Assembly: GCA_000827325.1 (NCBI GenBank)
Contig: KN832911.1
Span: 23,741 to 67,226, forward strand
Direction of reading: 5' to 3'
Origin: Oidiodendron maius Zn
Taxonomy: Eukaryota > Ascomycota > Leotiomycetes > Myxotrichaceae
Length of the DNA: 43,486 nt
The position numbers and the translations under genes are program-made. Shown in pieces: positions 3,335-23,841 of the stretch (positions are counted from its first letter, which is position 1; each line of letters starts with the position of its first letter). The notes beneath the pieces are model-generated. The model was given only the letters and a program-made list of their open reading frames with translations, was not told the DNA's origin and made no database searches.

Positions 3335-6203
3335 CTACCCCCCCCTTTAAGTAGCAGGTACCTTTAACTATAGTAGTCGAGTAGGTATATTAGGCCTATT
3401 GTCTATCAGATCCTTATAGCTATTATATCCCTGCTTCTAAGCCTTGATCTAATCAACTAGTCTGTATAGTAGTCCTAGCTGCTATAGATATTCAGTATAG
3501 AAATCATGTAGTTTATATAGAGAGTATTTGAAATCTGAGACTAGGTAGAAGTTGAGGTCTTTATTATAGCTGATCTAGGTAGCCCGGTATAGCAGCTTAT
3601 CCTATAAGAGCTTAGTAGCTAGTATCTTATCTACTTTATACTTAGCGTTATCCGTGATATATATAGGCTCTAGCTCCAGGTTATATTACCCTAGTAAAGG
3701 ATCGTCTACTACTTTATATAGCTAGTCTATATAGAAAACATTATATACCTTAATAGAGTCTAGTAGCTTTAGTTAGTAAGAGTAGCCTACCTTCCTTAAG
3801 ATCTTGAAAGGGCTTTCATTCTAGTTATCTAGCTTCTTACTAGGTTATAGTATATACTAGCCTTTTTGGGTAACCTAGACCTTGTCCTCTATATTGAAGT
3901 TAGGGACCTATTAGTATAAGTTGATATTATACTCTTTCTTATACTAAGCTTTCTTAATAGCTTCTTTACCCTTATTAAGGGCCTCTTCTATACAGGTAGC
4001 AATATCCTTAGTATATTCCTGGCTAAGCTATAGTATAGTATTAGCTAGTACTAGCTATAGCAGGGTTTAGTTAAAGGAGGTTTAAGGTAGATAGCTGTTC
4101 TAGACCTTATATAAGGATAAGCTACTAAGACTACTATAGGGTAGGGTTAATTAAGTATAGTCGATTATTAGCAGATAGTCTGACTAGTCATTCTAGTAGT
4201 AGTTTATAAAAGAATATAGATATAAATCATTATATTAGTTAATGATCTTAGTTTAGCTATCTATCTATAGGTGATTAGTAGTCAATAGCTTATACTTGAT
4301 CCCTAATATATAGTAAAAGGCAGCCTAAAACTCTAATATAAACTAGAGACTTTAGTCTAAGACTATCGAGTCAGAGGCTCTATAGTATTAGTAGATATAT
4401 TGGATAAACAGCTAGACTAAGTCCTTAGTGTTTATAGTCTTGAAGTAAGGGATAGATATTACCTGCTTAGTAAGCCAGTCAACTACAACTAGTATAGTAT
4501 TGAACCTCTTCTTGTCTAGCAGGAAACTCTTAAAGTCTACTAATATATCCCTCTAGGGCTTGTCTAGTATTAGTAAAGGGTATAGCAAGCTAGGGGTCTT
4601 ATCCCTAGATATATAGGATCTATAACAGGTATAGCAGTTGTATATATACCGCTTAATATCTGACTGTATGCCTGGCTAGTAGTAGTATAGCTGCAAGAGC
4701 TAGTAAGTCTTATCCCTGCCTGGATAGACAGTTAATATCTGATTATAAGCTTCTTAGATCAGCTCTATATAGAGATTATCTAGAGTAGTAGAGACGACTA
4801 ATCAACCTATATATAGCAATAGTCTGTCCTTAATAGTGTATTTGCTTAGAGTAGCTGATTTAGCCTATATATAGAGGGCTTCCAGGGACTCTATATCCTT
4901 ATTAGCCTGAAGTATCCAGTCAACCAGGTTATCGGACTTATTAAAAGGGTCTTCTTCTTTAATAGGTAGTAGGTTAATTACTAATATCTTAATACCTAAG
5001 TCCTGAAGAACTCTAGGATCCATCTAGTCCTGGGATAGGAAGGTATAGGTCTAATATTAGGTCTTGATTCTATCTTAAGTAGCAACCTTAATATCCCTCT
5101 AGGTAAATATATCCGCTTTCTGGTTCTGTTTACTAGGCCTATAGGATACAATAAAATGGTATTTGGCTAGTGCTTTAGTCTAGCAAGCCTGATAGCTAGT
5201 TAGCTGCTTTATTAATATAAAGTACTCCAGAGCCTTATAGTTAGTATAGATTTTGATCTGTTTTGTAGTCCCCTAGAGCTCTAGGCACCACTTAGCCAGT
5301 GATCTAACTATAACTAGTATTTCCTTGTTATATATCTTATAGTTATACTTAGTAGGCACTATAGTCTTTAAGAAGTAGGTGACTAGATACTATTCCTTAT
5401 TAGGGTAGAGCTATAATAGAATACTAGCAATTACCCTGTCTAATATATCTGTTTTGATTATTGACTTGTATTCAGGGCTATAATAGTATAGTATTAGTAC
5501 AGCTATAAGCTGTAGCTTTAGCTCCTTAAAAGCCTTCTAGTACTACTTATTAAATACAAATAGAATATTAGTCTTTATAAGTTGGATTAAAGGCTTAGTA
5601 ATCCTTCTATAGTCCTAGATAAAGCACCTATAAAAGTTGTAGAAGTCTAGGAATAACTAGATTCCCTTTATAGTAGTAGGAGTAGTCTAGTTGACTACTA
5701 TAGAGACCTTTTCTAGATTAACCTTAATACTATCTATAGTAATAATAAAGTCTAGGTATTTAGTATACTTAACCCTGAATTTATATTTCTTTAGATTAGC
5801 CTATAAGCCTATATCCCTTAGTTACTATAAGACCTTCTTAATATACTCTTTATAGTCTAACTTATTCTTAGAGTAAATAAGGATATTATCTAGATAAGTA
5901 GTATAGAAATCGTCTAGATAATCAAACAGGATATTATTTATATATTACTAATATATTGCTAGTCCGTTAATAAGGCTAAAAGGGAGGACCTTGTACTTAT
6001 ATAAGCTATAATAAGTCTAGAAGGTAGTTAACTCCTTAGACTCAGAGTCTATCTGGATCTGATTAAAAGCCTAGTAGATGTCCAGCTTAGTATAGAGTCT
6101 AGTATAGCTAATCTAGTTTAGTAACTTATTAATTAATAGAAGAGGATACTAATCCTTATAGGTTATCTAGTTCAAGTTCTGGAAATCAATATAGAGATAT
6201 AGG
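3335..6203 (-). pseudogene. Chromovirus C pol: RT, RNase H, integrase and chromodomain relic
   Basis: Minus-strand pol. Reading from right to left it holds RT (about 5600-6200), RNase H (about 5050-5550), the integrase zinc and core region (about 4100-4900) and the chromodomain near 3550-3800. Frames are closed by TAG/TAA at Gln/Trp positions. The hAT element D entered the RT palm region after 6203, and the rest of RT plus protease and gag continue at 16155. The sequence keeps more CpG and TpG than B, so it is younger or less mutated. Confidence 0.85.
6196..6203. repeat. Left target-site duplication of hAT D (GATATAGG)
   Basis: Identical to 16147-16154. Joining the flanks at this octamer restores the uninterrupted chromovirus RT sequence found in the other copies. 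Confidence 0.92.
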
Positions 6204-6413
6204 TAAGCTATATAATAGGTATCTATAGATAACCTATTAAGGATAACTACCTACCTACTAGATACCTAACCTAACTAGATAAGTAGTATAAAATATAACT
6301 ATCTATCTAGTAGGTACCTATAGATATCTATTATTTCAGATATATAACTATATATAATTTAATATAGTAATCTTTATACTACTTTTATTTAAGCTCTTCA
6401 ATTAAAGGCTATA
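6204..6413. repeat. Left terminal inverted repeat and subterminal region of D
   Basis: The 11-bp terminal repeat is 6204-6214. The following 200 bp contain short repeats of the type ctagtaggtacct and cctaacctaac. Matching motifs occur at 16030-16130 near the other end, where they read gtaggtacct and ctaggtacctgac. Subterminal arrays of this kind are typical transposase-binding regions in hAT elements; binding here is inferred. Confidence 0.7.
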
Positions 6414-6534
6414 TATATAAATTTAGCCTTAATAATTAATATCAAAATTATATAATTATTCTAGTCTATATAATATATATCTTAAGTATATATAGGGATA
6501 TATCTATAACTAGTATTACTATAAAGATTACTAT
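6414..6534. repeat. Left arm of a ~121-bp inverted repeat inside D
   Basis: This stretch is the near-exact reverse complement of 7541-7662, and most differences are transitions. The arms face each other across about 280 bp once the SINE-like insertion is removed. They could be terminal repeats of a small DNA transposon (MITE-like), or an inverted duplication made within D. No clear target duplication was seen outside the arms. Confidence 0.75.
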
Positions 6535-6606
6535 ATATATATATATATATTATATAGTAATACTATAATCTAATATAAAACCAACTCTATAAACACTACA
6601 ACTATA

Positions 6607-6750
6607 GCAGATTAGTATAACCCTAAATACTAATATACTTAGTTTAAGGCTAAGAATACCTCCAAGCCCAAGGAGCTATACTACTACTATAAGGAGTAAC
6701 AGGTTAAGATCAGGAAAGCTAAGTACAAGGAGAACCTTATAAAGAGGCAA
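6607..6750 (+). pseudogene. Short coding-like relic between the inverted arms
   Basis: A plus-strand frame of 48 codons reads like protein once TAG/TAA are taken as Gln. It is rich in Lys and Tyr and ends in KAKYKENLIKRQ. Several Tyr codons could be former Cys (TGC or TGT to TAC or TAT), so a small zinc-binding domain is possible. I do not recognise the family. It precedes the SINE-like insertion and lies between the 121-bp inverted arms. Confidence 0.35.
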
Positions 6751-6814
6751 TATATCACTATATATATATTTAATTAATAATTGTAATAATTTGTCTCTTA
6801 TTATATTAAGTAAT

Positions 6815-7525
6815 TGCCCGGATAGTGTAGTAGTTGTATACCTAGATCCTAAAAGTCATTATCGAACCTAATAGGTCTTGCCTACCCTATTTAAACCTGT
6901 AATATAAGGGATATTGGTTCGAATCCAGCTCTAGGCACCTCTTCTATTGCCTCCTAGAAGATGACTAGCTGGTTCACCTAGGACTGCTCCCCCTAGGCCT
7001 AGCTTGAACCTGGATTCTGCTCCCGGTTATCACAGTAGCGGTTTTTGCCTAACCGAGAACCTTGGCCCTGGCTTCTGCTCCCGGATACTATAGTAGCAGT
7101 CGCCTAACCAAGAACCTGGGCAAAACCCTACCTTTCTAGAGGGGTGAGCCTCTAGAAACGATAAAGACTAAATTATTGATATACGACTAAAGAGCTTGAG
7201 ACTAGGGTGATAGGGCCCTACAACCGTAACCAATCAAGTAGCGAAGCGACCAGCCCCTAGAGGCCGTCTAGGAACAGAACTGGGTGAGAGACAGGGCTGG
7301 ACACCAGAGGCAGGGATAGTGGTCTGATCCCAGGGAGAAGGAGGAAGTTTGGTTCAGAGTTACCACTGGACGAGTTTACCTAGGCCTCCCGATTATTTGC
7401 CTATATTATAAGGGGGTATATATATCAGTAAGGATTCTTCCAAGAGGTTGCGTTAGCCTTTGTATATAGGATATTATTGTATAGAAGTACTGTAGCTTAG
7501 CTATTACAGAGGATAATAATAATAA
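6815..7525 (+). mobile_element. SINE-like retroposon with tRNA-like head and (AAT)n tail
   Basis: A GC-normal island of about 711 bp, free of RIP, inside RIP-degraded D. It is flanked by a perfect 13-bp direct repeat, TATATTAAGTAAT (6802-6814 and 7526-7538). The 5' part resembles a tRNA (see separate entry), and the 3' end is an aataat microsatellite (about 7513-7525). A tRNA-derived head, an unrelated body, a simple-repeat tail and a long target duplication together define a SINE. The body contains a 58-bp imperfect tandem duplication (units start at 7015 and 7073) and a 9-bp hairpin (7134-7142 with 7149-7157). Fungal SINEs of similar size exist (Foxy of Fusarium, about 0.7 kb). No protein is expected. 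Confidence 0.7.
6816..6937 (+). ncRNA. tRNA-like pol III promoter head of the SINE
   Basis: It begins gcccgga and ends tctaggca. The acceptor halves pair except at one C/A position and one G/T wobble. An A-box-like tagtgtagtagttg and a perfect B box ggttcgaatcc (6916-6926) are present. The anticodon arm cannot be folded cleanly, and the region is about 49 nt too long for a plain tRNA. It is therefore either a tRNA with an intron or, more likely, the tRNA-derived head of a SINE. Confidence 0.55.
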
Positions 7526-7540
7526 TATATTAAGTAATCT

Positions 7541-7662
7541 TATAGTAATCTTTATAGTAATACTAGTTGCAGCTATATCTCTATATATACTTAAGGTATA
7601 TATTATATAGACTAGAATAATTATACAATTTTGATATTAATTATTAAAGCTTAATTTATATA
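7541..7662. repeat. Right arm of the ~121-bp inverted repeat inside D
   Basis: The reverse complement of 6414-6534. It starts with tatagtaatctttatagtaa, one of the many dispersed copies of this short motif in D. It lies between the SINE-like insertion and the 3' end of the first H3-like gene. Confidence 0.75.
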
Positions 7663-7777
7663 TTACTATAAACTTAGCTAGTATAAATTAGATTTATATT
7701 AGATAAGGGATAGATTAATATAAATATTATTATAAAATCAATAAAGTATTTAATATATACTTATTAATATCCTATAA

Positions 7778-8338
7778 TTAAGTATATACTTGACTAACTT
7801 TCTTATATCCTAGTATTCCTAGTCTTATTTGCTAGACAAGAAGTATATCCTTTTGCTGAATTATAACTCTCTTAGTATATATTACTACTAGATTAGTTAC
7901 TATAAATATTAGTATAATTAATAAAGAAGATATAAGTAATACTTATACTTGAATTTATAAACCAATACTATCTCTATAGTTTCTTATAGAGTATAATAAG
8001 CAGCTTCTTGGAATTGATATAATCTATTAATTTGGTTGTCTAAAGTAATTCTATTTATAATTTCCCTAACTATATACCTAAATAGTGCCTTCAGAATAAA
8101 GAGCTTAGTAGACTTTTGATAGTATCTGATTTCATATAGAGTATAGACTAAACCAGTCAGTAACTTATAGTAATCTTTATATTAATTGATATTACTTATA
8201 TTTTTGTCTTTTATACTTTAAGATTAGAGCCTTTCTTGCTTCTTTAGTCTCTAGCTTTATTATAGAGTATATTTTAGATAGAGGAAAGAGTATAGTTTTG
8301 CCTCCTATAACTAGACCAGAATGGGTTTTAGTCCTAGC
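7778..8338 (-). pseudogene. Histone H3-like gene 1 carried by hAT D (RIP-degraded)
   Basis: Minus-strand exons read as histone H3. A tail exon (about 8338-8200) starts ARTKTHSG, against ARTKQTAR in H3. A core exon (8147-7947) contains YEIRYYQKSTKLFI and IVREI. A last exon (7899-7778) contains VTNLVVIYTKRV and KDILLVQQIR, against TNLCAIHAKRV and KDIQLARRIR. The two introns are about 8199-8148 and 7946-7900. Their 5' sites read ATAAGT, consistent with RIP of GTAAGT. The upstream sequence ends CTACTAACTTTTATAG, so the start codon probably lay in a further upstream exon. Loop 1 between REI and the LQE helix is 22 residues, against 16 in H3 and 18 in CENP-A, and the C-terminus is about 15 residues longer than H3. 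Gln codons are turned into TAG/TAA, so the gene is dead. The H3 fold assignment is strong. Whether it was a canonical-H3 or cenH3-type variant is inference. Confidence 0.8.
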
Positions 8339-8386
8339 TCTATAAAAGTTAGTAGTGTTTTGTTATAGGGGTAATTATACTTATAT

Positions 8387-8735
8387 TTTATAGTAATCTT
8401 TCTAGTAATATATTTAGATCAAAAAGACTAGCTAATTAAAGTAAGTTAGAGTAAAAGTGAAAAATAGATATCTAGTAAAAAGAAGATTAAAGCTATCTAG
8501 CCCTATAAAGATTAGCGGTATTTTATTATTAGATTAATTTTCTTATAATTTATAGTAATCTTTCTAGTAATATACTTGGATAAAAAAGGCTAGCTAGTTA
8601 AAGTTGATTATTATAAAAGTAAAAAAATAAATATCTAGTAAAAAGGAGATTAAAGCTATCTAGCCCTATAGAGATTAATAGTATTTCATTATTAGATTAA
8701 TTTTCTTACTATTTATAGTAATCTTTCTAGTAATA
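8387..8735. repeat. Tandem repeat, 162-163 bp unit, between the H3-like genes
   Basis: Two full units (8387-8548 and 8549-8711) are followed by the first ~24 bases of a third (8712-8735). Each unit starts with the motif tttatagtaatctttctag and shares internal blocks such as gattaaagctatctagccc. The array lies upstream of H3-like gene 1 and downstream of H3-like gene 2. A duplicated promoter region is one possibility. No coding frame was seen in 8339-8904. Confidence 0.85.
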
Positions 8736-8904
8736 TACCCTAATTAGAGCTATATATTAGCTGAAGCAATATTATAGTAAAGGGTATAATATTATAGTAA
8801 AGGTAAGGATAAATATAGAAAGAAAGGTAATTTAGATAAGATATCTATATAAAAGGATAAAATTATTAGACATTAAGACTAGTACCTGTATTTTGGCTAC
8901 TAAT

Positions 8905-9416
8905 CTAACTATAACGCTCTCCTACTAGCTTATACTCTAGTATACCCTCTCTTATACTTTATACTAGCTTTATATCCTTTTACTAAATTATAATTCTCTT
9001 AGTATAGATTATAGCTAGATTTGTTACTATAAATATTAGTATAAAAGATAAAATTAACTAGATAATTATATACTTATACTTAAACTTGTTTATTAATGCT
9101 ATCTCTACTACCTCTTATAATACCTCTAGTATAGAAGCTTAGATATAATAGTATTGTCTAACAGTAATACTATATATTATCTCTTTTACTAGTTATATAA
9201 ATGGTACCTTTGGAATTAAGAGATTAATAGATCTTTAATGTTTTTATATCTCTTAAAGTATATATACTATATATAGAGTCAGTATAATTATAGTAACTAT
9301 TATAGTAATATTAATTATATACTATATTAACTAATATAATATTGCCTTTTTGGACCTGCTCTAGTACTATTTAAGGGTACTATACTAGATAAGGTTTTAC
9401 TAGCCCTAGTCTTAGC
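8905..9416 (-). pseudogene. Histone H3-like gene 2 carried by hAT D (RIP-degraded)
   Basis: A second, diverged copy with the same exon layout. Its tail exon reads AKTRASKTL and ends near GPKRQYY. An intron follows with branch-like TACTGAC and end TATATATAG. The core exon contains INLLIPKVPF, LVKEI and a VLQEV helix, and the last exon contains VTNLAIIYTKR and KDIKLVQSIR. The spacing from KEI to the LQE helix is 18 residues, as in CENP-A and two more than in H3. A one-base insertion in an A run just before the RS-INLL segment shifts the frame, in addition to RIP stops. The last intron ends in TACTAATATTTATAG, as in gene 1. The two genes are tandem, same strand, about 570 bp apart, and probably arose by duplication within the element. 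Confidence 0.75.
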
Positions 9417-9872
9417 ATTGACTTTTTAATAATATTAATATAATCGGGCTTTATTAGTATAAATATTAGTATAAATATATATACAGGAAGTAAAGGGTCT
9501 GATTACTTATATATTTGTTATATAACAGTAGCTTTAATAGGTGATTATAGTATAGGTTAGCCAAATAAGAAGTTGCTTATATTAAGAGTTGTTATATAAA
9601 AGGGATAGAAGTAATATATAATAACATTATATATTATATAATTGTTATAATTATATAATCCTATTAGTTATATAATACTAGTAAATACTGTCTACTATAA
9701 CCTTATTTCTTAGACTAATTAGCTTCTAGACCTTATAACTATATTACCTCTTATAATATATATCTTTAGAGTCTACTATATAACTACAATATAATAGACT
9801 AAAGCTAACCTTCTATAAGTATAACCCTTATTATAGTAATCTTTATACTAATAGTATATAAAGAATCCTTGA
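9417..9872. other. AT-rich spacer between H3-like gene 2 and the plus-strand gene of D
   Basis: About 455 bp separate the minus-strand H3-like gene from a plus-strand coding relic, a divergent arrangement. No readable frame was found. It contains one copy of the dispersed motif (tatagtaatctttatacta, near 9834), inside what could be a short intron. A bidirectional promoter could lie here, but no box is distinctive in such AT-rich DNA. Confidence 0.4.
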
Positions 9873-10111
9873 AAGCATAAAGCTTCTAATAAGCTATCAA
9901 CTAATATAAATATAGTAAAGGTTAGATAAAGAAATAAGTATATTATCTAGGATCTAATTTAAGACAAAGTAGAGAAAGCCAAGTATATAGATTAGAGTAC
10001 AATTATATATACTAAGAAGAAGCTAGTCTAGATATAGGAGTATCAAGATATAACTAAGGAGAAGAAGTAGTAGCTTATTAATAAGTCTGCTTATAAAGTT
10101 ATACTTTAATA

Positions 10112-10165
10112 GTAAGTGTTTTACTTAGATTATAGTAATATTTATACTAATCTATTATATAATAG
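10112..10165 (+). other. Spliceosomal intron relic with shared core motif
   Basis: GTAAGT at the 5' end and AATAG at the 3' end, 54 bp. The interior carries tatagtaatatttatactaa, nearly identical to cores in the introns at 10618, 13913, 14774 and 15861. The frames on both sides join in phase. Confidence 0.65.
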
Positions 10166-10617
10166 CTCCTATAAGGGAAAGGATATAAAATCAGTTATAA
10201 TAAAGCTAGACTAGAGTAATAAAGGAGGCCTTTATACTATAACTGATAATTATAATCTTGCTTAAAAGGATATTAATTATAAGTCTAATAATGAATACAA
10301 GTTTAAGATAAGATAGTATCAAGATAAGAGAGTAAATAATAACTCTATACTAGAAGCTCTCTTTAAGGAGGAATTAATATTAAGTAGTATAAATATAAAG
10401 AAAGTATTTAGCTAGATAAGTAATAAGATTATTATAAATATTACTATATACTAATAATAAATAGAAGCAGAAAGAACTTAAGTTTAAAATTTGGTATAGA
10501 ATCTAGCTTTAATATAAAAGATCTTTATTCTAAAAGATTTAAAAGCTTATAAATAGTAGCTAGGAGTATATCTTATAAGCCAGTCCTTTATATATTAATA
10601 AGTCTAAGTAAGTTATA

Positions 10618-10667
10618 TTCTATTTATAGTAATATTTATAGTAACTAATTAAACTAACGTTTTATAG
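10618..10667 (+). other. Spliceosomal intron relic with shared core motif
   Basis: GTAAGT start, branch-like ACTAACG and TATAG end, 50 bp. It contains tagtaatatttatagtaac, the same core as the other D introns. Confidence 0.65.
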
Positions 10668-11292
10668 TATATTTTATAACTATATAGGCCTAGACAAATT
10701 CTTTATAACTAACAAAAAGGGGATCTAGAAGAATTATATAATATAGAATAAGGAAGATAATAATCCTGAATAGACTACCTTACTAGGTCCTACTAATTAA
10801 TAGCTAGAGGATATTAATAGTACTGGATTTTGCTTCTCTAATAAGAAATCTAGTTATTTTAATGCTTATAAGATAATTTATAAGAAACAGATCTCTAATG
10901 ATAGATTATATAAGAGGATTTTCCCCTCTAGTACTAACCTTCTCTTGATATCTAAGAGCTTGATTTCAGATATAGCCTTAACTAGCTTTCTTAGGCTTTA
11001 GATAGACAGAATATAAGTCCTATTCCTTATAATAATCTTTATACTAACTACTCTAGTTATTATACTAGTATTATTTCAGTAATGATATTCTTACTAATTA
11101 GATAACTGAAATAGATACAGTAAGCTATTCTATACTAATACTTATACTAACCTTATTTCTATACTCTAGTCTTATTCAAGTATAGTCTAATAGAAATACT
11201 CTTATAGTATATAAGTTTTAATATTATTTAGAGATTATACTAATTAATATAATAATTATAGCTTTAATTATACTATATATATTATTATCTAT

Positions 11293-11706
11293 NNNNNNNN
11301 NNNNNNNNNNNNNNNNNNNNNNNNNNNNNNNNNNNNNNNNNNNNNNNNNNNNNNNNNNNNNNNNNNNNNNNNNNNNNNNNNNNNNNNNNNNNNNNNNNNN
11401 NNNNNNNNNNNNNNNNNNNNNNNNNNNNNNNNNNNNNNNNNNNNNNNNNNNNNNNNNNNNNNNNNNNNNNNNNNNNNNNNNNNNNNNNNNNNNNNNNNNN
11501 NNNNNNNNNNNNNNNNNNNNNNNNNNNNNNNNNNNNNNNNNNNNNNNNNNNNNNNNNNNNNNNNNNNNNNNNNNNNNNNNNNNNNNNNNNNNNNNNNNNN
11601 NNNNNNNNNNNNNNNNNNNNNNNNNNNNNNNNNNNNNNNNNNNNNNNNNNNNNNNNNNNNNNNNNNNNNNNNNNNNNNNNNNNNNNNNNNNNNNNNNNNN
11701 NNNNNN
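11293..11706. other. Assembly gap (414 N)
   Basis: Unsequenced run within D. The flanking sequence on both sides is AT-rich and in the style of D, so the real gap size and content are unknown. Confidence 0.99.
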
Positions 11707-12060
11707 CTAAAGAAAGTATATAATTAGCTAGGTCTTCTTTACAAGATATATAGTATTATATAGTCTTAGATAAAGTATATACTATTAAGAATAATATAGG
11801 ATAAATAAGAGTAGCTTATTAAAATTTAAAAAGCCTCTATAAATAGTATATATTAGGATAAATAAGTCTAAGAGTATCCTATAGTAATACCTATACTAAG
11901 ACCCTTAATTTCGCTTAAAGGTTTTATTAGCTAAATAAAGTATAATGACTATAGATCTTTAGAGTTTAAAAAGGTATATTCTATTATATATAATTAACTA
12001 TTAGATTTTAAAGATTTTAAATTTTTTATTTAGATTTTTTTAAAATATAATACTTTTTAA
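11707..12060 (+). pseudogene. Unrecognised coding-like relic after the gap
   Basis: A plus-strand frame of about 110 codons is readable with TAG/TAA as Gln. It includes EYPIVIPILRPLISLKGF and then a Phe/Lys-rich end (DFKDFKFF). It may belong to the same gene as the frames left of the gap. No family is recognised. Confidence 0.4.
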
Positions 12061-13207
12061 TACTTTAAATATTAATACTATTCTTTAAGACTTAATAGTT
12101 ATAATATACTACTATATCTTTATTATATATAAAAGATAATATAGGGTTCTTTTTTAAAATACTAGAATAGCTAGATTTTTATATCTATTATTAATAAAAG
12201 AGAGAGGAGAAGAAGGGGAGGGGGGGGGTATCCCTTATTTAGTTAATATATAACTTTATAAATATATTCAACAATTAATTAAGATATATTATTGGATCGC
12301 TTATCCCTATTAGTTATAGGTTTTTATACCAGATAAAGGGATAATATAAGGTATAAGGTTAAGGTCTTTATATAGAATATATAGGATATAGTTAAGATAC
12401 TAGTATAATATACTAGTTATAATAACCTCTAGATTATAGAAGGGAGACTAGTCCTCTCTAAGAGTTCTATAAGAAATAATCTGTATTTAAATGAAGTTAA
12501 GACTATAATAATACTAATACTCTAGTTATAGTAATCTTTATAGTAACCCTATTATAAACTATAGAATTAAGTATATATATATAATAGTATTCTTATAGCT
12601 ATATATCCTCTTTCTATTAAACTACTATCTTTATAGATACTTCTATTTATTATTACTTCTAAGCTTTATTAAGAATCAATTTGCCTATAATAGCTACCTT
12701 ATTATTAGAAGCATTATTTGATTTCTTAGTTCAATCTGATAATATAGTAGTAAATAAAGCTAGCCTACTATAAATTAGGTCTAGAAATAACTTCTTTTAA
12801 TAGTCAAGGGAATACTACTAATTATTTCTCTATTAGTAAAGGGAAACTATCTAGGTAGTTTAATAAAACAATATATCTTTCTTAGATATAATAAAACAAA
12901 TTAGATAGGACTCTTTATATAGAGTTTTAGAAATATAGAAAAAGTTTTACTAAGCTATATCTTATATAACTAGCAAGCTAGTAGTTATATATCAGAGGTA
13001 TTATACTATACTTATATATCTAAAGGTTAAGAATATAGGGACTTCTATACTAGAGAAACACCTTTTATTAGTCTAGTATAGAAGGGAGCTTAAGGATAGC
13101 TCTTAATCCTTAATCTTGAGTTTTATATAAATATATCTCTAGCTACTATAAATATTATTATAAATATTACTATAAACACTAATCTACTTCTATAGCTAGT
13201 ATTGACT
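12061..13207. other. Part of D upstream of the recognisable hAT transposase
   Basis: It contains a purine/G-rich run at about 12200-12229 and one dispersed motif copy (tatagtaatctttatagtaa, near 12533). Frames at 12340-12480 and 12800-13080 look protein-like after reading TAG/TAA as Gln. They may be the N-terminal, BED-like part of the transposase, but no zinc-binding residues can be confirmed after RIP. No intact gene. Confidence 0.4.
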
Positions 13208-13912
13208 TTCAATTAATTAGATTTCTATAATCAAATTCTTATAATAATTATTTTAATATAAATCCCTTTCTAGTTAGTTGAAAATACTAAATAGAAGAGG
13301 CTTGCTTTAATACAAAATCTATAATATCTACTCCTAAATACAACTACTATTCGAAACTATCTAATAATCTAGCTTAAACAAGTTAAAGCTACCTTCTTAT
13401 AAGATATTGTTCCTAAAGCTAAAGTCTTATTATTACTTGATTGCTAGTCTAGCTTAATATAGTTATCCTTTATAGCAATTATAGTCTATTATATCAATAA
13501 AGATTAGTATCTATATAAAGAGCTAATTAGTTTTGAAAATTTAATAGATATATATTCTAGGAGCAAGTTTACTAAGGTTATTAATAATATAGTTATGAAA
13601 TATCAGCTATAAAGTCAAGTAATCTCTATTATAACTAATAATATAAATAATAATAGCTCTCTTGTCTTAGAGCTTAATTCTATAATCTATACTACCTTAA
13701 AAAAGAAACTAGTTATATTTAATAATGAAATCTAGTATATTCTCTACCTTTTATATATTATCTAATTAGTACTATAGGCATTATTAGAGAAGATCTAGAT
13801 TCAGCTAAAAAACAAAGTCTTCTTAAGAGACTAGAAAGAGGTATAGTAATTAAGTAATCTTGATCAAATTGCTACTACTAAAAATAGAGGTATTCTATAT
13901 ACTTTAGCTAAA

Positions 13913-13962
13913 GTAAGTATTACTATTATTATAGTAATATTTATAGTAATTATATAATATAG
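13913..13962 (+). other. Intron 1 of the hAT transposase relic
   Basis: Begins GTAAGT, ends AATATAG, 50 bp, with exons in phase 0 on both sides. The interior is tatagtaatatttatagtaa, the shared D-intron core. Confidence 0.75.
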
Positions 13963-14773
13963 CTTTATAAACTTGCTATTCTTGTTAATTCAAGTATTTA
14001 GTAGAAGTAGTAGTTTGAAAAGCTTTAGATTTAATATAATAAGATTAAATAAAGATCAGCTCTAGTTCTATAGCTTATTATAGATATTTCGATCTAATAG
14101 GATTTAATAGAGCTTATAATGATTTGTACCCTCTGCCTTTACTATATAATTAATCAGTATATAAAGTTATTTGAATATATAACTCTATTTACCTTATCTA
14201 GGTCTAAATAGAAGAAGATTAAATACTTAATTGATATTATATAGCCCTTTAACTTCCTTACTACAAATATCAGAAGAACTAAGAGTATTACCCTCCCTTA
14301 TATATTATTAATATATAATCTTCTCTTTAAGCAGTTTACTAAATCTTAATAGTAGCTTGAAATAAAGCTTATAACTTCTCTATAGGTAAAGGAGTTAATA
14401 GCTAGTATTAATATAGCTAAAGCAAAACTTGACAAGTATTATTATAAAGTTTATACTAATCTTAGAAGTCTCTATAAGATTAGGGTATTACTAAACCCTA
14501 AACTAAAAGCAGAGAGTTTTAATTAGGATTACTACTAGCTTGATTATAATATAAAAGTATAGGATATTGAGTTTAAACAACAATTATAAAGTCTCTATAC
14601 TAGGGACTATATATACTAAGACTAATAGAATACTGATTAGCTATAAGCATTTTAATATCAGAATAAAAACCCCCTTATAGTATTATTAGATATTAATCAG
14701 TTTAGTTGTAATATATAGTCAGATAATTCAGAAACAATCAATATAGAAGAAGTATTAGAGTAGCTTATAATAA

Positions 14774-14835
14774 GTAAGTTTTTATAGTAATATTTATAGT
14801 AACCTATTATTAGTATATACTAATATAAAATATAG
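14774..14835 (+). other. Intron 2 of the hAT transposase relic
   Basis: Begins GTAAGT, contains the shared core tatagtaatatttatagtaa and a branch-like TACTAAT, and ends ATATAG, 62 bp. Splicing in phase 1 joins the core to the dimerisation domain in one frame. Confidence 0.75.
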
Positions 14836-15060
14836 GACTAGATAATAGACTACTACTTGAAGTATAGAAATCTCTTAAATACTAACTCTCTAGTCTTACT
14901 ACTATAGCTTAAGACTTACTAGCTATCCTAATAGCTAGTGTTAGTATTGAATATATATTTAATTATATATATAATATATATTATTATCGATATAGCCAAT
15001 TAAAACCTGATACTATTTGAGCGTTAATGCTTATTTATTGCTATTAGTAATTAATTTTAT

Positions 15061-15860
15061 ATATAGATAAGCTTCAAAGTACTCTTAGTCTAATTATTAA
15101 TATTAATACTATAACAAATAAGGAAATAGAGGCTGAAGTTAAAGAGTATAAGAGGGAATATCAACTAAAAGTAGCTGAAATTGATAAATAGGATCAAGAC
15201 TAATTTATAAATAATACTAAGGAGAATATCCTACCCTAGACTTGTAAGATTGAACTACAGAAGGAATTCCGGGTTAGAGCTAGGTATCAAGGCTCTAATC
15301 AAGGGGCTATAGGTATATATAATCTTAATTTACTCTCTAGTCTATAAGAGAGTAATAGAAGAAGGCAGAGGGAGGAGTTTAATAGAATAAATTGGGATGT
15401 TTCTAGCTTTAAAGAGCCTGAAATACCTTCAATTCATTAATTACTAGATAGGGAGAGTTCTATAGATAGTACTCCTTAATCTCTTAGAGATTCTAATAGC
15501 TTATCCTAAAGAAAACAGTAGCAAATATAGTTAGATTCTTTAATAAAACTATAATTTCTCTACTATATAAAGTCTTGAGTAGAGGTTCAGGTTAATATAT
15601 AGGTTATAGTTGGATATTAAGGTAAAACTCAGTTATATTGACTATAGGCTTTCAGTATAGTAGAATACCAAAAGTAGTAGGTTAAGAGAGTAATATAAAG
15701 ACAACTAACTAAGTATAGCTATACTGGAGTAAAGGCCCCTTTATATAGACTTATTCAACCTCTTATTGACTTATATAAATCCTCTGAATCCTGGATTCTA
15801 AAGGATATCCTGAATCCTAAGGGATATATTATACAAGCTTAAGGCCCTAATCAATATAAA
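15061..15860 (+). pseudogene. In-frame C-terminal extension after the hAT domain, unknown function
   Basis: The transposase frame does not end after the dimerisation domain. It continues for about 265 codons without a stop that RIP could not explain. The segment is very rich in charged residues and former Gln/Arg codons (for example NKEIEAEVKEYKREYQ, then ESNRRRQREEFNRINWD). It ends at an intron (15861-15921) 225 bp before the element's terminus. I do not recognise the domain. It may be a second domain of the transposase or a separate protein whose start is no longer visible. Confidence 0.5.
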
Positions 15861-15921
15861 GTATAGTAATATTTATAGTAATACTTATTTAACATTAATA
15901 CCTATACTTAATTTTAAGTAG
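15861..15921 (+). other. Putative intron near the right end of D
   Basis: Begins GTATAG, ends AAGTAG, and contains tagtaatatttatagtaa, the same core as the other D introns. The short sequence after it (15922-15990) shows no convincing final exon. Confidence 0.5.
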
Positions 15922-16146
15922 GGTACAAATCTACTACTCTTATAAATATACTTGTTTTAGTATTATTACTAATATAATTGACTCTAGCTATACTAATCCT
16001 AATTAAAGGTAGGTATCTAATAGATACCTACTCTAAAAGGATCTAACCTGACCTAACCTAGTAGGTACCTATATAAAGGAGGATCTACTCTATAGGTTAG
16101 GTACCCAAGAAACCTACTAGGTACCTGACCCAAAGTATATAGCCTA
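15922..16146. repeat. Right subterminal region and terminal repeat of D
   Basis: It contains repeated gtaggtacct, ggttaggtacc and ctaggtacctgac motifs between 16009 and 16130. It ends with the 11-bp terminal repeat (16136-16146), tatatagccta, the inverse of the left end with one transition. The duplicated target GATATAGG follows at 16147-16154. Confidence 0.75.
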
Positions 16147-16154
16147 GATATAGG

Positions 16155-19070
16155 TATCTATTAGCCTTATAGACAAAGAGGATCAGTATAGTAAAGGGGG
16201 CCTGACTAGGCTCTATAAAACCTTTATAAAGATTCTTGATAAGGTAGTACTTGACCTCCTCTAGTTCCTTTATAGTTATATAGTATAGTAGTCTAAAACC
16301 TAGGTTATTAGGCTCTATTAGATTGATCCTATAATTGTAGGGCTAATTAGAAGGCAATATATCTAATACTTCTTTAGAAAAAACATCCTGGAACTCCTTA
16401 TAAGCTACTAGTAGTAGTGGTTCTTGTAGTAGAGTAAGCTCTAACTAGCTAATTTGATAGAGATCAGTAGTCTAGCTACTACTATCTATAAAGCTTTAGT
16501 CCTTCTAATCTTAGATCAATCAATTAATCTTATATAGGCTAGTTAAAAAGAGCTCGCTATCCTTTTAGTATAGATATAGGCAAAAACCGTTTACTGAGAT
16601 AGTGTTAATATCTATCTAGTAGGGTCTTTTAGCTTTAGTAGGCTAGTAGGGCTTCTTTTAGTAAGGGAGGTTAGAGGTTTGCTATTAGTCCAAAAGGTTA
16701 TTATTTATCTTCTATAGGCAGTCCTAGAGCTCTAGCTTAAAGGAGACCTTAGATTAAAGCTTCTGCTTTAGCTTTAGTTAAGGGGTTAATTTAACCTAGC
16801 TACTAGGGGAAATCAAGGTAATCTCTATACTCTTATAGCCTAAATCGCTTCCCTAATCTATAGCAGTAAAGGCCTAGTCCCTATAATCTATATCTTCTTA
16901 GTAGCTAAAAGCCTTTAGAGCTAGGATTAGATTTTAGTAGTTCTACTAGATTTCCTTGGCTACCAAGTAGCTAGATAGTAATTTAGCTGGCTAGACTAAG
17001 CAGTATTGCTAGTAATCTAGTAAAACATTAAAATAGACTAGCTACTTCTATCTAATTATTATATCGTGGCTTTCTAGATCTAATATTAAGAGAGGTATAT
17101 TATACTAGTAATACTAGTTAACAGTCAGGTATAGCTATATATAATAGGTAACTAGTCTCTCTAGCTGGCTATTATATCCTTTAATCTAGATAGAGCTAGA
17201 TAGTTGAGTAGTTTTAATATTAAAGGACTTAGCTAGATTAATTATAAAGAGTATATTAATAAATATAAATCTATTTACTCTAGAGTTAATAAGGGTATAT
17301 AAGGTAATACTAGTTCTATAGGTTAATAGTATATAGGCTATAGTAAGGTACTATTCTTCTATAAGACTTCTTAAGTCAATTCCCTATAAATTAACCCCTA
17401 GAAAGCCTAGACTGGAGTCTTTGTCTAGGCCTCCTCTTTTCCCGGGTCTGTATCAGCAACTCTATCCCTATAAATAGTGTTCTTATAGACTCCTAAGTCT
17501 CTAGCTTTATTATTCTTAATATCCTTGATATTAGCTGCTTAGTCTAGTAGCTTATAGTCTATATATAGGTAGCTAATCCCTCTATAATTAAAGCACCTAG
17601 TCTACTAGTATAGCTAGAACAGTAATATAACTAGCTAGAGGTTAATTAGCTTAGGCTAAGGCAGCTAGTCTAGAGCTAGTAGTAGTATACTGCCTACTTA
17701 ACTAAGTGGCTTTAGAAGTTAAGGATACCTAACAGCCGGACAGGTAGAAGGTAGCTATATAGTAGCTTTAGCCTCTTAATCCTTTATAATCTAGTTGTTG
17801 AAGTATTATAGGTTAGTATTAATATAGCCTAGATAATTATAGAGCTTCTGGAAATTGCTATCTAGATTATACTTAGTAGCTAGGATATATAACTAAAGAG
17901 GAGCTATAACCTTCTTATATAAGTTATTAAAACAGTCTGTCTCTAGAATCCAGCCTCTATTAGCTAGCTAGAGGAATTATATCTTAAAGTCCTAGAAAAA
18001 CTCCTTATCCTTTATTTTTAGTTCTTTATATTTAGTATAAGAGTCTTCCTTATAGTATTAGTTATAATAGATATTATTAAGGGTTATTAGTATCTTAGTA
18101 TAGTTAAGGTAAGGGTTATTGTTCTTTATATTACTAGTATATTAAGGGTATAAGTACTGCTAAGCTTCTCCCTCTATATAGTTAAAGATAAACAACTAGA
18201 TCTTCTAATTGCTATCAAATTAAAAGCTATCAATTTGGAGTTTATCTATAACTTGCTTTTTCTAGACTTAATATTTAATAGTTCTATCCTTCTTTCTAGA
18301 GAACTAAGGAGGGTCCTTATACTTTAGTTTATATTGAACTATATACTAGGATTCAGATCTAGTTGTTGGTTCTAGAGAAGCTTAGAGAGGAGTCAGGTTT
18401 TAGAGCAACTAGACAACTATAGCCTCTAGCTTTTCAATCTACTTCTAGATAGTCTTAGCCTCTATTTAACTCTTGACTTAGGTATACTAGAGAGCTAAGA
18501 GGTTAGTATACTAGTCTAGACTCTTAAAGGATTCCTGATTAAAGGGGTTGCTTTTAAAAGGGGCTGGATACTAAGTAGATCCTTAGAGTTTAGAAGGTCT
18601 ATAAAAGGTATCCCTTGCTTTACCCTTGTCTTTGGCTAGAGGGGCTATATTAGTAGTCTTGAATTTAGAGATTAGGCTTAGAGTATCAAATCAGTTATAT
18701 AGTTATATTGCAGGTATATCCTGATTTCTATTACTATAGACTATTAGGAATAGTATTCTTACTAGGATATATTTACTAGTTATATAGATATATATTTAAG
18801 AGTTAAAGAGTATAAGAGGTTTAATAGATAGATAGTAAGTATAAACAGGCTTAATAAACACTAGTTCTGATTAAATGCTAGCTTCTAAGGCTTCTCTAGC
18901 TGCCTTTGCTTTAATAGCTTGTTTTATAACTATATAGTTGGAGCTAGTAATATCAAAGGTATAGAAGGGCTATAGATTGACTGAATCTAGTAGCTCTTAG
19001 TAAGCAGCAGTAGTATTTAACCTTGACTAACTATAAGAGTAAAGAAGAAGAAGAGTAAGTTTAATTATAA
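16155..19070 (-). pseudogene. Chromovirus C: rest of RT, protease and gag (RIP-degraded)
   Basis: The minus-strand continuation of C after the hAT insertion. It includes the N-terminal part of RT and the protease side of pol, the gag zinc knuckle near 17560-17600 (compare H at 35926-35967), and the gag N-terminus near 18950. Upstream of gag, next to the 5' LTR, the primer-binding sequence is at 19058-19068 and reads agtttaattat (one G-to-A from the intact form). No intact frame. Confidence 0.85.
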
Positions 19071-19365
19071 TATAATAGCCTAGCTACTATAAGCTTTATA
19101 AAGGGAGGCAATAGCTAGTTAAAGTACTATATTAATAAAGACAATTAAACTAAGGAGAGAAAAGCTCTCTAGATAAACGCTTAACTATATAAATACTGCT
19201 TAGCCTAGATTAAGTCTAGTGCTAAGAGGATATAGTGAATCGCTAGCGGCTGCTCTAGCCTGCTAGTCCTAATCCGTTATAAATCCTCCTTAACTACTAT
19301 ATCCAGATCCTAGCTACTACTAGCCTAGTAGAACTACCTTGTCCTAGCCTGGCTAGACTATTATA
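19071..19365 (-). repeat. 5' LTR of chromovirus C
   Basis: 295 bp, paired with 3040-3334. It contains the acaattaaact block (minus strand AGTTTAATTGT) that is complementary to the primer-binding site next to the LTR. It is followed by the duplicated target AAAGA (19366-19370). Confidence 0.93.
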
Positions 19366-23546: not shown

Positions 23547-23841
23547 TATAATAGCCTAGCTACTATAAGCTTTATAAAGAGAGACAGTAGCTAGTTAAAG
23601 TACTATATTAATAAAGACAATTAAACTAAGGAGAGAAAAGCTCTTTAAGTAAACACTTAACTATATAAATATTACTTAGTCTAGATTAAGTCTAGTACTA
23701 AAGGGATATAATGAATCGCTAGTAGCTGCTCTAGCCTACTAGTCCTAATCTGTTATAAATTCTCCTTAACTACTATATCTAGATTCTAGCTACTACTAGT
23801 CTAGTAGAACTACTCTATCCTAGCCTAACTAAGCTATTATA
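23547..23841 (-). repeat. 5' LTR of chromovirus B
   Basis: 295 bp, paired with 1131-1425. It contains acaattaaact at 23617-23627, the exact inverse complement of the primer-binding site 23534-23544. Element A resumes after the duplicated TCTAT (23842-23846). Confidence 0.93.

Follow-up and report, generated by a model that had tools for sequence, protein, structure and literature searches.

Histone H3-like genes have been described as cargo of hAT-type DNA transposons in fungi. In Pyrenophora tritici-repentis, a 5.6-kb hAT element carries a transposase gene, a central open reading frame (ORF), and one H3-like gene that matched neither H3 nor CenH3; its copies are intact and nearly identical, with transcripts (Manning et al. 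2013; PMC3538342). Pseudocercospora fijiensis has 471 H3-bearing elements (about 9.5 kb when full), each with one or two H3-like sequences, a 20-bp terminal inverted repeat (TIR), an 8-bp target-site duplication (TSD), and damage by repeat-induced point mutation (RIP); DUF659 was found in the element and the dimerisation domain was not, and H3-like copies also occur in five other Mycosphaerellaceae (Dhillon et al. 2019; PMC6710886). A 16-residue insertion sets apart the second H3-like copy of P. fijiensis, and the authors' model is that host H3 was captured in intronless form, as a transcript or retrocopy (PMC6710886). The element analysed here, D, lies at 6204–16146 of a 43,486-nucleotide stretch of contig KN832911.1 of Oidiodendron maius Zn (positions 23,741 to 67,226; hereafter the window), and two H3-like genes, A and B, lie within it on the minus strand.

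By the published descriptions, D is a member of this already described kind of H3-bearing hAT element; the earlier note on this DNA had known of no transposon of the type with histone cargo, a claim that the two papers overturn. We read D as a dead element of the known kind whose cargo was two genes of a divergent, once functional H3 variant (H3L), and we put the probability of this reading at roughly two in three.

D resembles the P. fijiensis element, as published, in size (the copy on contig C14 measures ~9.1 kb), number of H3-like genes, 8-bp TSD, hAT-type transposase traces, and RIP damage. It differs in its TIR (~11 clear bp against 20 bp) and in having a weak dimerisation region where the P. 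fijiensis element has DUF659, a domain that Pfam did not report in the window or the C14 copy. Compared by description, the P. fijiensis H3-like sequences are published as intronless, whereas both genes of D have introns; the 16-residue insertion of P. fijiensis might be an unrecognised counterpart of intron 2 (47–51 nt here, ~16 codons), a likeness of length alone. Against the P. tritici-repentis element, likewise compared by description, D is larger (~9 kb against 5.6 kb), has two H3L genes rather than one, and survives as broken rather than intact copies. Judged by the open-access literature searched, what may be new are the introns, a depletion of transversions at codon positions 1 and 2, and kinship with proteins of Bisporella and Talaromyces.

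Structure of the two H3-like genes

Genes A (7778–8338) and B (8905–9416) form a tandem pair on the minus strand. Translated through its stops, the minus strand of window positions 7526–11292 matches the Pfam family Histone (PF00125) at 42 bits against a cut-off of 26.4 bits (E 1.4e-10), which bears out the two minus-strand H3-like genes reported by the earlier note. The span given for them, 7778–9416, is accurate as well, running from the in-frame stop that closes gene A (7778) to the base at which the readable tail of gene B begins (9416). A PF00125 search of the genome (58 contigs, 45.9 Mb) returned eight matches; C14:1151720–1151902 is the same H3-like gene in the C14 copy and is open without read-through (Histone E 3.2e-9). 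All six exon stretches have lengths divisible by three in every aligned row that covers them (five rows for each exon of A; three, three, and four rows for exons 1 to 3 of B). Chance similarity to H3 was considered and is ruled out by the E-values and by the frames kept in all covering rows.

Exon 1 of gene A (8200–8338) runs from ARTK, its start codon not placed, and is stop-free in all five covering rows. Intron 1 (8148–8199; 52 nt, phase 1; GTAAGT...CTGAC...TTTAG in C14) separates it from exon 2 (7947–8147), which encodes EIRYYQKST ... VREI ... LQE and is open in C14. Beyond intron 2 (7900–7946; 47 nt, phase 1; GTAAGT...ACTAATATTTATAG in C14), exon 3 (7778–7899) encodes TNL...KR...KDI...IR...GYK, has one internal stop in the window copy, and ends at an in-frame TAA. 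The window copy of A has a mutated 5′ site in each intron. Gene B repeats this plan, with introns of the same position and phase: a tail exon (9323–9416; AKTR..., start codon not placed, one stop in the window copy), intron 1 (9267–9322; 56 nt, with a weak 5′ site that reads GTACAT in C14), exon 2 (9078–9266; six stops in the window copy, two in C14), intron 2 (9027–9077; 51 nt; GTAAGT...ACTAATATTTATAG in C14, its 5′ site mutated in the window), and exon 3 (8905–9026; three internal stops in the window copy), which ends at an in-frame TAG. The ARTK-type tail start that had been attributed to both genes thus holds for A alone; gene B begins AKTR (TKTR in the C12 row).

The sharing of intron places between A and B, also claimed earlier, is exact: both introns of each gene are in phase 1 and fall at positions common to A and B, intron 1 a few residues ahead of the LxEI helix and intron 2 in the residue preceding TNL. 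In C14, the least mutated copy, three of the four H3-like introns have GTAAGT 5′ sites, and all four have an ACTGAC or ACTAAT branch-like site and a TAG 3′ end; in the window copy, mutation has altered three of the four 5′ sites. As read by eye from translations, the introns of host H3 fall at TARK/STGG and VTIQS/KDIQL, and those of host CENP-A ahead of the GDPLP stretch and after LVR. The H3-like intron positions coincide with neither set, which argues against the published intronless-retrocopy model.

Host H3 and CENP-A share with A and B the histone fold and the order of motifs, and H3 shares the ARTK-type tail start with gene A; apart from intron positions, they differ from the pair in C-terminal extension and probably in tree position. 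Loop 1 is longer in both A and B than in canonical H3, as it is in host CENP-A. The YQKST motif is kept in A and reads HQRSI in B and YQSST in host CENP-A. Gene A has FELTNL and a C-terminal EYKKVG (C14) or GYKKVS (window); the C terminus of B is GYKLV in C14 and EYKLV in the window and C12 rows. Just upstream of gene A, window positions 8380–8789 hold three head-to-tail repeats of ~163 bp, each with the 20-bp motif TATASTAATMTTTATASTAA (one mismatch), which recurs throughout D (see below).

RIP yields transitions only, and the comparison between A and B (C14 copy, 94 codons) was therefore restricted to transversions. These number 13, 7, and 29 at codon positions 1, 2, and 3; positions 1 and 2 combined have 20 in 188 sites, compared with 29 in 94 for position 3 (Fisher p 4.8e-5). 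Such a depletion is expected if A and B were both constrained as proteins after they split; together with the introns, this codon-position bias argues for cargo that functioned as a gene.

Relatives of the H3-like proteins

A protein search with gene A returned 771 proteins at E ≤ 1e-5 among 805 candidates, and the statements that follow concern the best 120. The best match, P0001 (Synchytrium microbalum, 254 aa), is a double histone, a tandem pair of H3-type domains of which the first is divergent; its second half was used in the tree. Matches 2 and 3, P0002 (Bisporella sp. PMI_857) and P0003 (Talaromyces marneffei TMatcc_001239), are intact and are not canonical H3. Like gene A, both carry FE[LM]TNL, and with the cargo they also share the lengthened loop 1 and a C-terminal extension of GY[KR] type. 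They differ from A and B as intact single proteins that are far less diverged from canonical H3. In pattern scans of the 120 proteins, three have FE-x-TNL in which x is not D (P0002, P0003, and P0064), and two have the GY[KR] extension past the last helix (P0002 and P0003); the longer loop 1 (spacing over 18) is found in ten and is hence less specific.

The tree comprised 29 rows: A, B, host H3, host CENP-A (the sole CENP-A included), the second half of P0001, P0002, P0003, and 22 more proteins picked by hand from the best 120. It splits A, B, P0002, and P0003 from the other 25 rows with support 97/96, and the clade of P0002 and P0003 has support 99/97 when the RIPed rows are left out. Forcing A and B together with host H3 gave a p-value in the approximately unbiased test (p-AU) of 0.019, and with host CENP-A of 0.021. 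In trees with fewer rows, p-AU was 0.0023 with host H3 and 0.0013 with host CENP-A for gene B alone, and 0.109 and 0.064, respectively, for gene A alone. A tree with host H3 and CENP-A, the check that the earlier note had proposed, thus rejects both placements for the pair and for B, and neither for A by itself. That H3L did not arise by recent copying of host H3 or CENP-A, but forms part of a distinct H3-like group whose intact members occur in other Pezizomycotina, is supported but not proven.

Element D, its copies, and their damage

D (forward strand, two later nested inserts included) has the ends TAAGCTATATA ... TATATAGCCTA and is flanked by the 8-bp TSD GATATAGG, read directly from the sequence in identical form at 6196–6203 and 16147–16154, in agreement with the perfect duplication noted earlier. 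The terminus given in the earlier note is exact at the right end of D; the left end is TAAGCTATATA, one base off, and no exact TAGGCTATATA occurs on the forward strand. An alignment of nine left and 11 right ends, window included, defines a TAGGCTRYRYA type with ~11 bp of clear TIR and RIP-type variants; RIP-type changes aside, the window ends agree with the eight other left and ten other right ends. The sole other copy with both ends is that on C14, whose flanks have AAGTTGC (seven bases) in common, or eight bases if one boundary is shifted by a base. D was inserted into another dispersed repeat of ~5.3 kb, the halves of which continue on both sides: window positions 4099–6205 and 16146–19365 correspond to C12:10185–12291 and 12281–15505.

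Searched by DNA, window positions 7700–9500 gave ten matches, namely the window itself and pieces on C14, C36, C12, C11, C51, and C19. Other parts of D gave 29 matches (left end), 19 (transposase part), 14 (right end), and four (central part). Many copies run into contig ends, and D is a common breakpoint of this assembly; contigs C36, C51, C22, C15, C8, C16, C34, C41, and C12 begin or end in or next to copies of D, and the copy counts are therefore lower bounds. The H3-like genes are present in all four copies that can be traced from the left end into their slot (window, C14, C36, and C12), to the extent that each can be followed: nothing separates the H3 region from D in C14 or, up to the contig end, in C36, and a large insert interrupts it in C12. 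The C51 copy reaches exon 3 of gene A and then the contig end, the C11 copy has H3 pieces split by inserts, C22 diverges from D at about window position 7646, ahead of the slot, and the remaining examined copies end short of it. No H3-less copy of D was seen in this genome, which is weak evidence for constant H3 cargo because many copies end before the slot or cannot be judged. A search of the genome with P0002 gave 15 matches, 12 in copies of D and three in exons of host H3 and CENP-A, and found no intact H3L outside D.

RIP-type stop codons occur in every copy read, and no intact copy was seen. Exons 2 and 3 of gene A contain two stops in the window, one in C14, six in C36, four in C12, and nine in C11. 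The TpA/ApT index is 1.46 in the window copy and 1.38 in C14, against 0.60–0.76 at four host loci; (CpA+TpG)/(ApC+GpT) is 0.36 and 0.65, against 1.14–1.32 at the same loci. These indices fit RIP damage of D.

The readable part of a broken hAT transposase gene lies on the forward strand at approximately 13450–15075, placed from its frames, with a dimerisation region at 14895–15035. With stops read as residues, the mutated copies match PF05699 at 19.1 bits (window; E 0.0011) and 18.4 bits (C14; E 0.0019), where the curated cut-off is 21.4 bits. A broken central gene of several exons occupies approximately 9970–11030 on the same strand, its limits transferred from the frames of the C14 copy.

Two later nested inserts are not part of D. 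The first, of ~710 bp (6815–7525), is missing at that place in the C14, C36, C12, and C51 copies; it has near-copies at C51:24580–25307 and C19:20988–21697, a flanking repeat of ~12 bp (ATATTAAGTAAT), and RIP indices of 1.65 (TpA/ApT) and 0.81 ((CpA+TpG)/(ApC+GpT)). A tRNA-derived origin was suspected by eye and is unsupported, as tRNA and Rfam scans of the window gave no hits. The second insert, of ~280 bp, spans 15574–15853; alignments of other copies skip from window position 15573 to 15854–15856. The left part of D also contains a 123-bp inverted repeat (93%; 6413–6535 and 7541–7663), present in other copies too, which may be a fold-back element or else a structure of the hAT subterminal region.

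The near-palindromic motif TATASTAATMTTTATASTAA occurs 25 times in the window at two or fewer mismatches (0.40 expected), 24 of them in D (6363–15881), where it is spaced at ~400 bp on both strands. Genome-wide there are 80 exact matches; by coordinate count, 70 are in pieces of D and ten elsewhere. It lies inside the H3L introns, inside putative introns of the transposase and central genes marked by changes of frame, and in apparently non-coding parts of D. The motif may be an intron-spreading (introner-like) repeat or a putative transposase-binding site.

Origin and possible role of the H3-like cargo

On our reading, D is a hAT-type DNA transposon with a hAT transposase gene, a central gene, and two tandem H3L genes. 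Its transposase would have moved it by cut-and-paste, making the 8-bp duplication, and it spread to many places. The living element may have expressed H3L, which would have joined H4 in nucleosomes and given D some advantage, perhaps by marking the chromatin of the element or by resisting heterochromatin or silencing. RIP-type C-to-T mutation then broke every copy read. A role for H3L in altering chromatin or resisting silencing is conjecture, compatible with the trace of purifying selection and with the position in the tree. In this genome, H3L now most likely does nothing.

A rival explanation, and the published model for P. fijiensis, is passive transduplication: a transcript or retrocopy of the host's H3 gene would have been taken up by a hAT element and then duplicated and dispersed, and the copies would have been of no consequence throughout and finally destroyed by RIP (PMC6710886). 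It would account for an architecture and fate like those published for P. fijiensis (~9.5 kb, one or two H3-like sequences, 8-bp TSD, RIP), and for the failure of the tree test to separate A alone from host H3 (p-AU 0.109). We nevertheless think it unlikely, since the cargo has two spliceosomal-type introns at positions common to A and B and without counterpart in host H3 or CENP-A, by which a retrocopy origin is already weakened; the codon-position bias of the A–B transversions and the grouping of both genes with the Bisporella and Talaromyces proteins point the same way. Descent from the centromeric histone CENP-A, captured for its centromere-targeting property, would explain why loop 1 is longer in both genes, a feature that ten of the 120 best-matching proteins also have. 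This origin appears very improbable given the values of p-AU with host CENP-A for the pair (0.021) and for B (0.0013), although A alone is not rejected (0.064) and the tree holds one CENP-A; in addition, the motif that reads YQSST in host CENP-A is YQKST in A and HQRSI in B.

The earlier note had itself raised the prospect that the H3 genes were a separate nested insertion or a host locus; synteny speaks otherwise, with the pair in the same slot in other copies of D. If the pair were an independent mobile unit, or a locus of the host, that came to lie in D by chance, this would fit its orientation on the strand opposite the transposase, the other nested inserts that D holds, and the C22 copy, which leaves D just ahead of the slot and whose last 407 bases have no match to D. 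We regard this as the least probable explanation of all: the slot is the same, with no gaps at the junctions, in the window and C14 and in the readable parts of C36 and C12, and 12 of the 15 P0002 matches fall in copies of D, the other three being host H3 or CENP-A exons.

Our preferred reading, a dead hAT element whose cargo was a once functional H3 variant, has several points to weigh against it. The transversion count comes from one pair in one copy of 94 codons, and A and B of C14 also carry stops; the p-AU values for A alone reject neither host histone. The tree was built on mutated sequences with very long branches (1.5 changes per column for A and 1.9 for B, the longest in the tree), while the end branch of P0002 is zero. 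A and B are not sisters, B pairing with P0002 (99/94), which is at odds with a simple duplication within D, unless the long branches are misleading; the group of A, B, and P0002 without P0003 has support of only 91/74. P0002 shares about as much identity with host H3 (56%) as with P0003 (55%), and both proteins, known here as proteins alone, need not be element-borne. Both PF05699 matches are below the curated cut-off, and searches of the protein collection found no relative at E ≤ 0.001 of the central gene among 439 candidates or of the transposase among 5761.

A bolder form of the preferred reading, which we hold tentatively and at clearly less than an even chance, is that H3L is a long-lived variant group kept by hAT elements of Pezizomycotina as a working gene under selection, represented here by two diverged paralogues, rather than a passively captured housekeeping gene. 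The element would make a nucleosome component of its own with which to shape chromatin at its copies, for example to counter silencing, for as long as RIP had not killed it. Seen in this way, a published oddity that was read as a neutral retrocopy would become a testable hypothesis, that of mobile elements encoding a chromatin component of their own; the intact relatives in Bisporella and Talaromyces offer concrete proteins with which to ask whether, and where, H3L enters nucleosomes.
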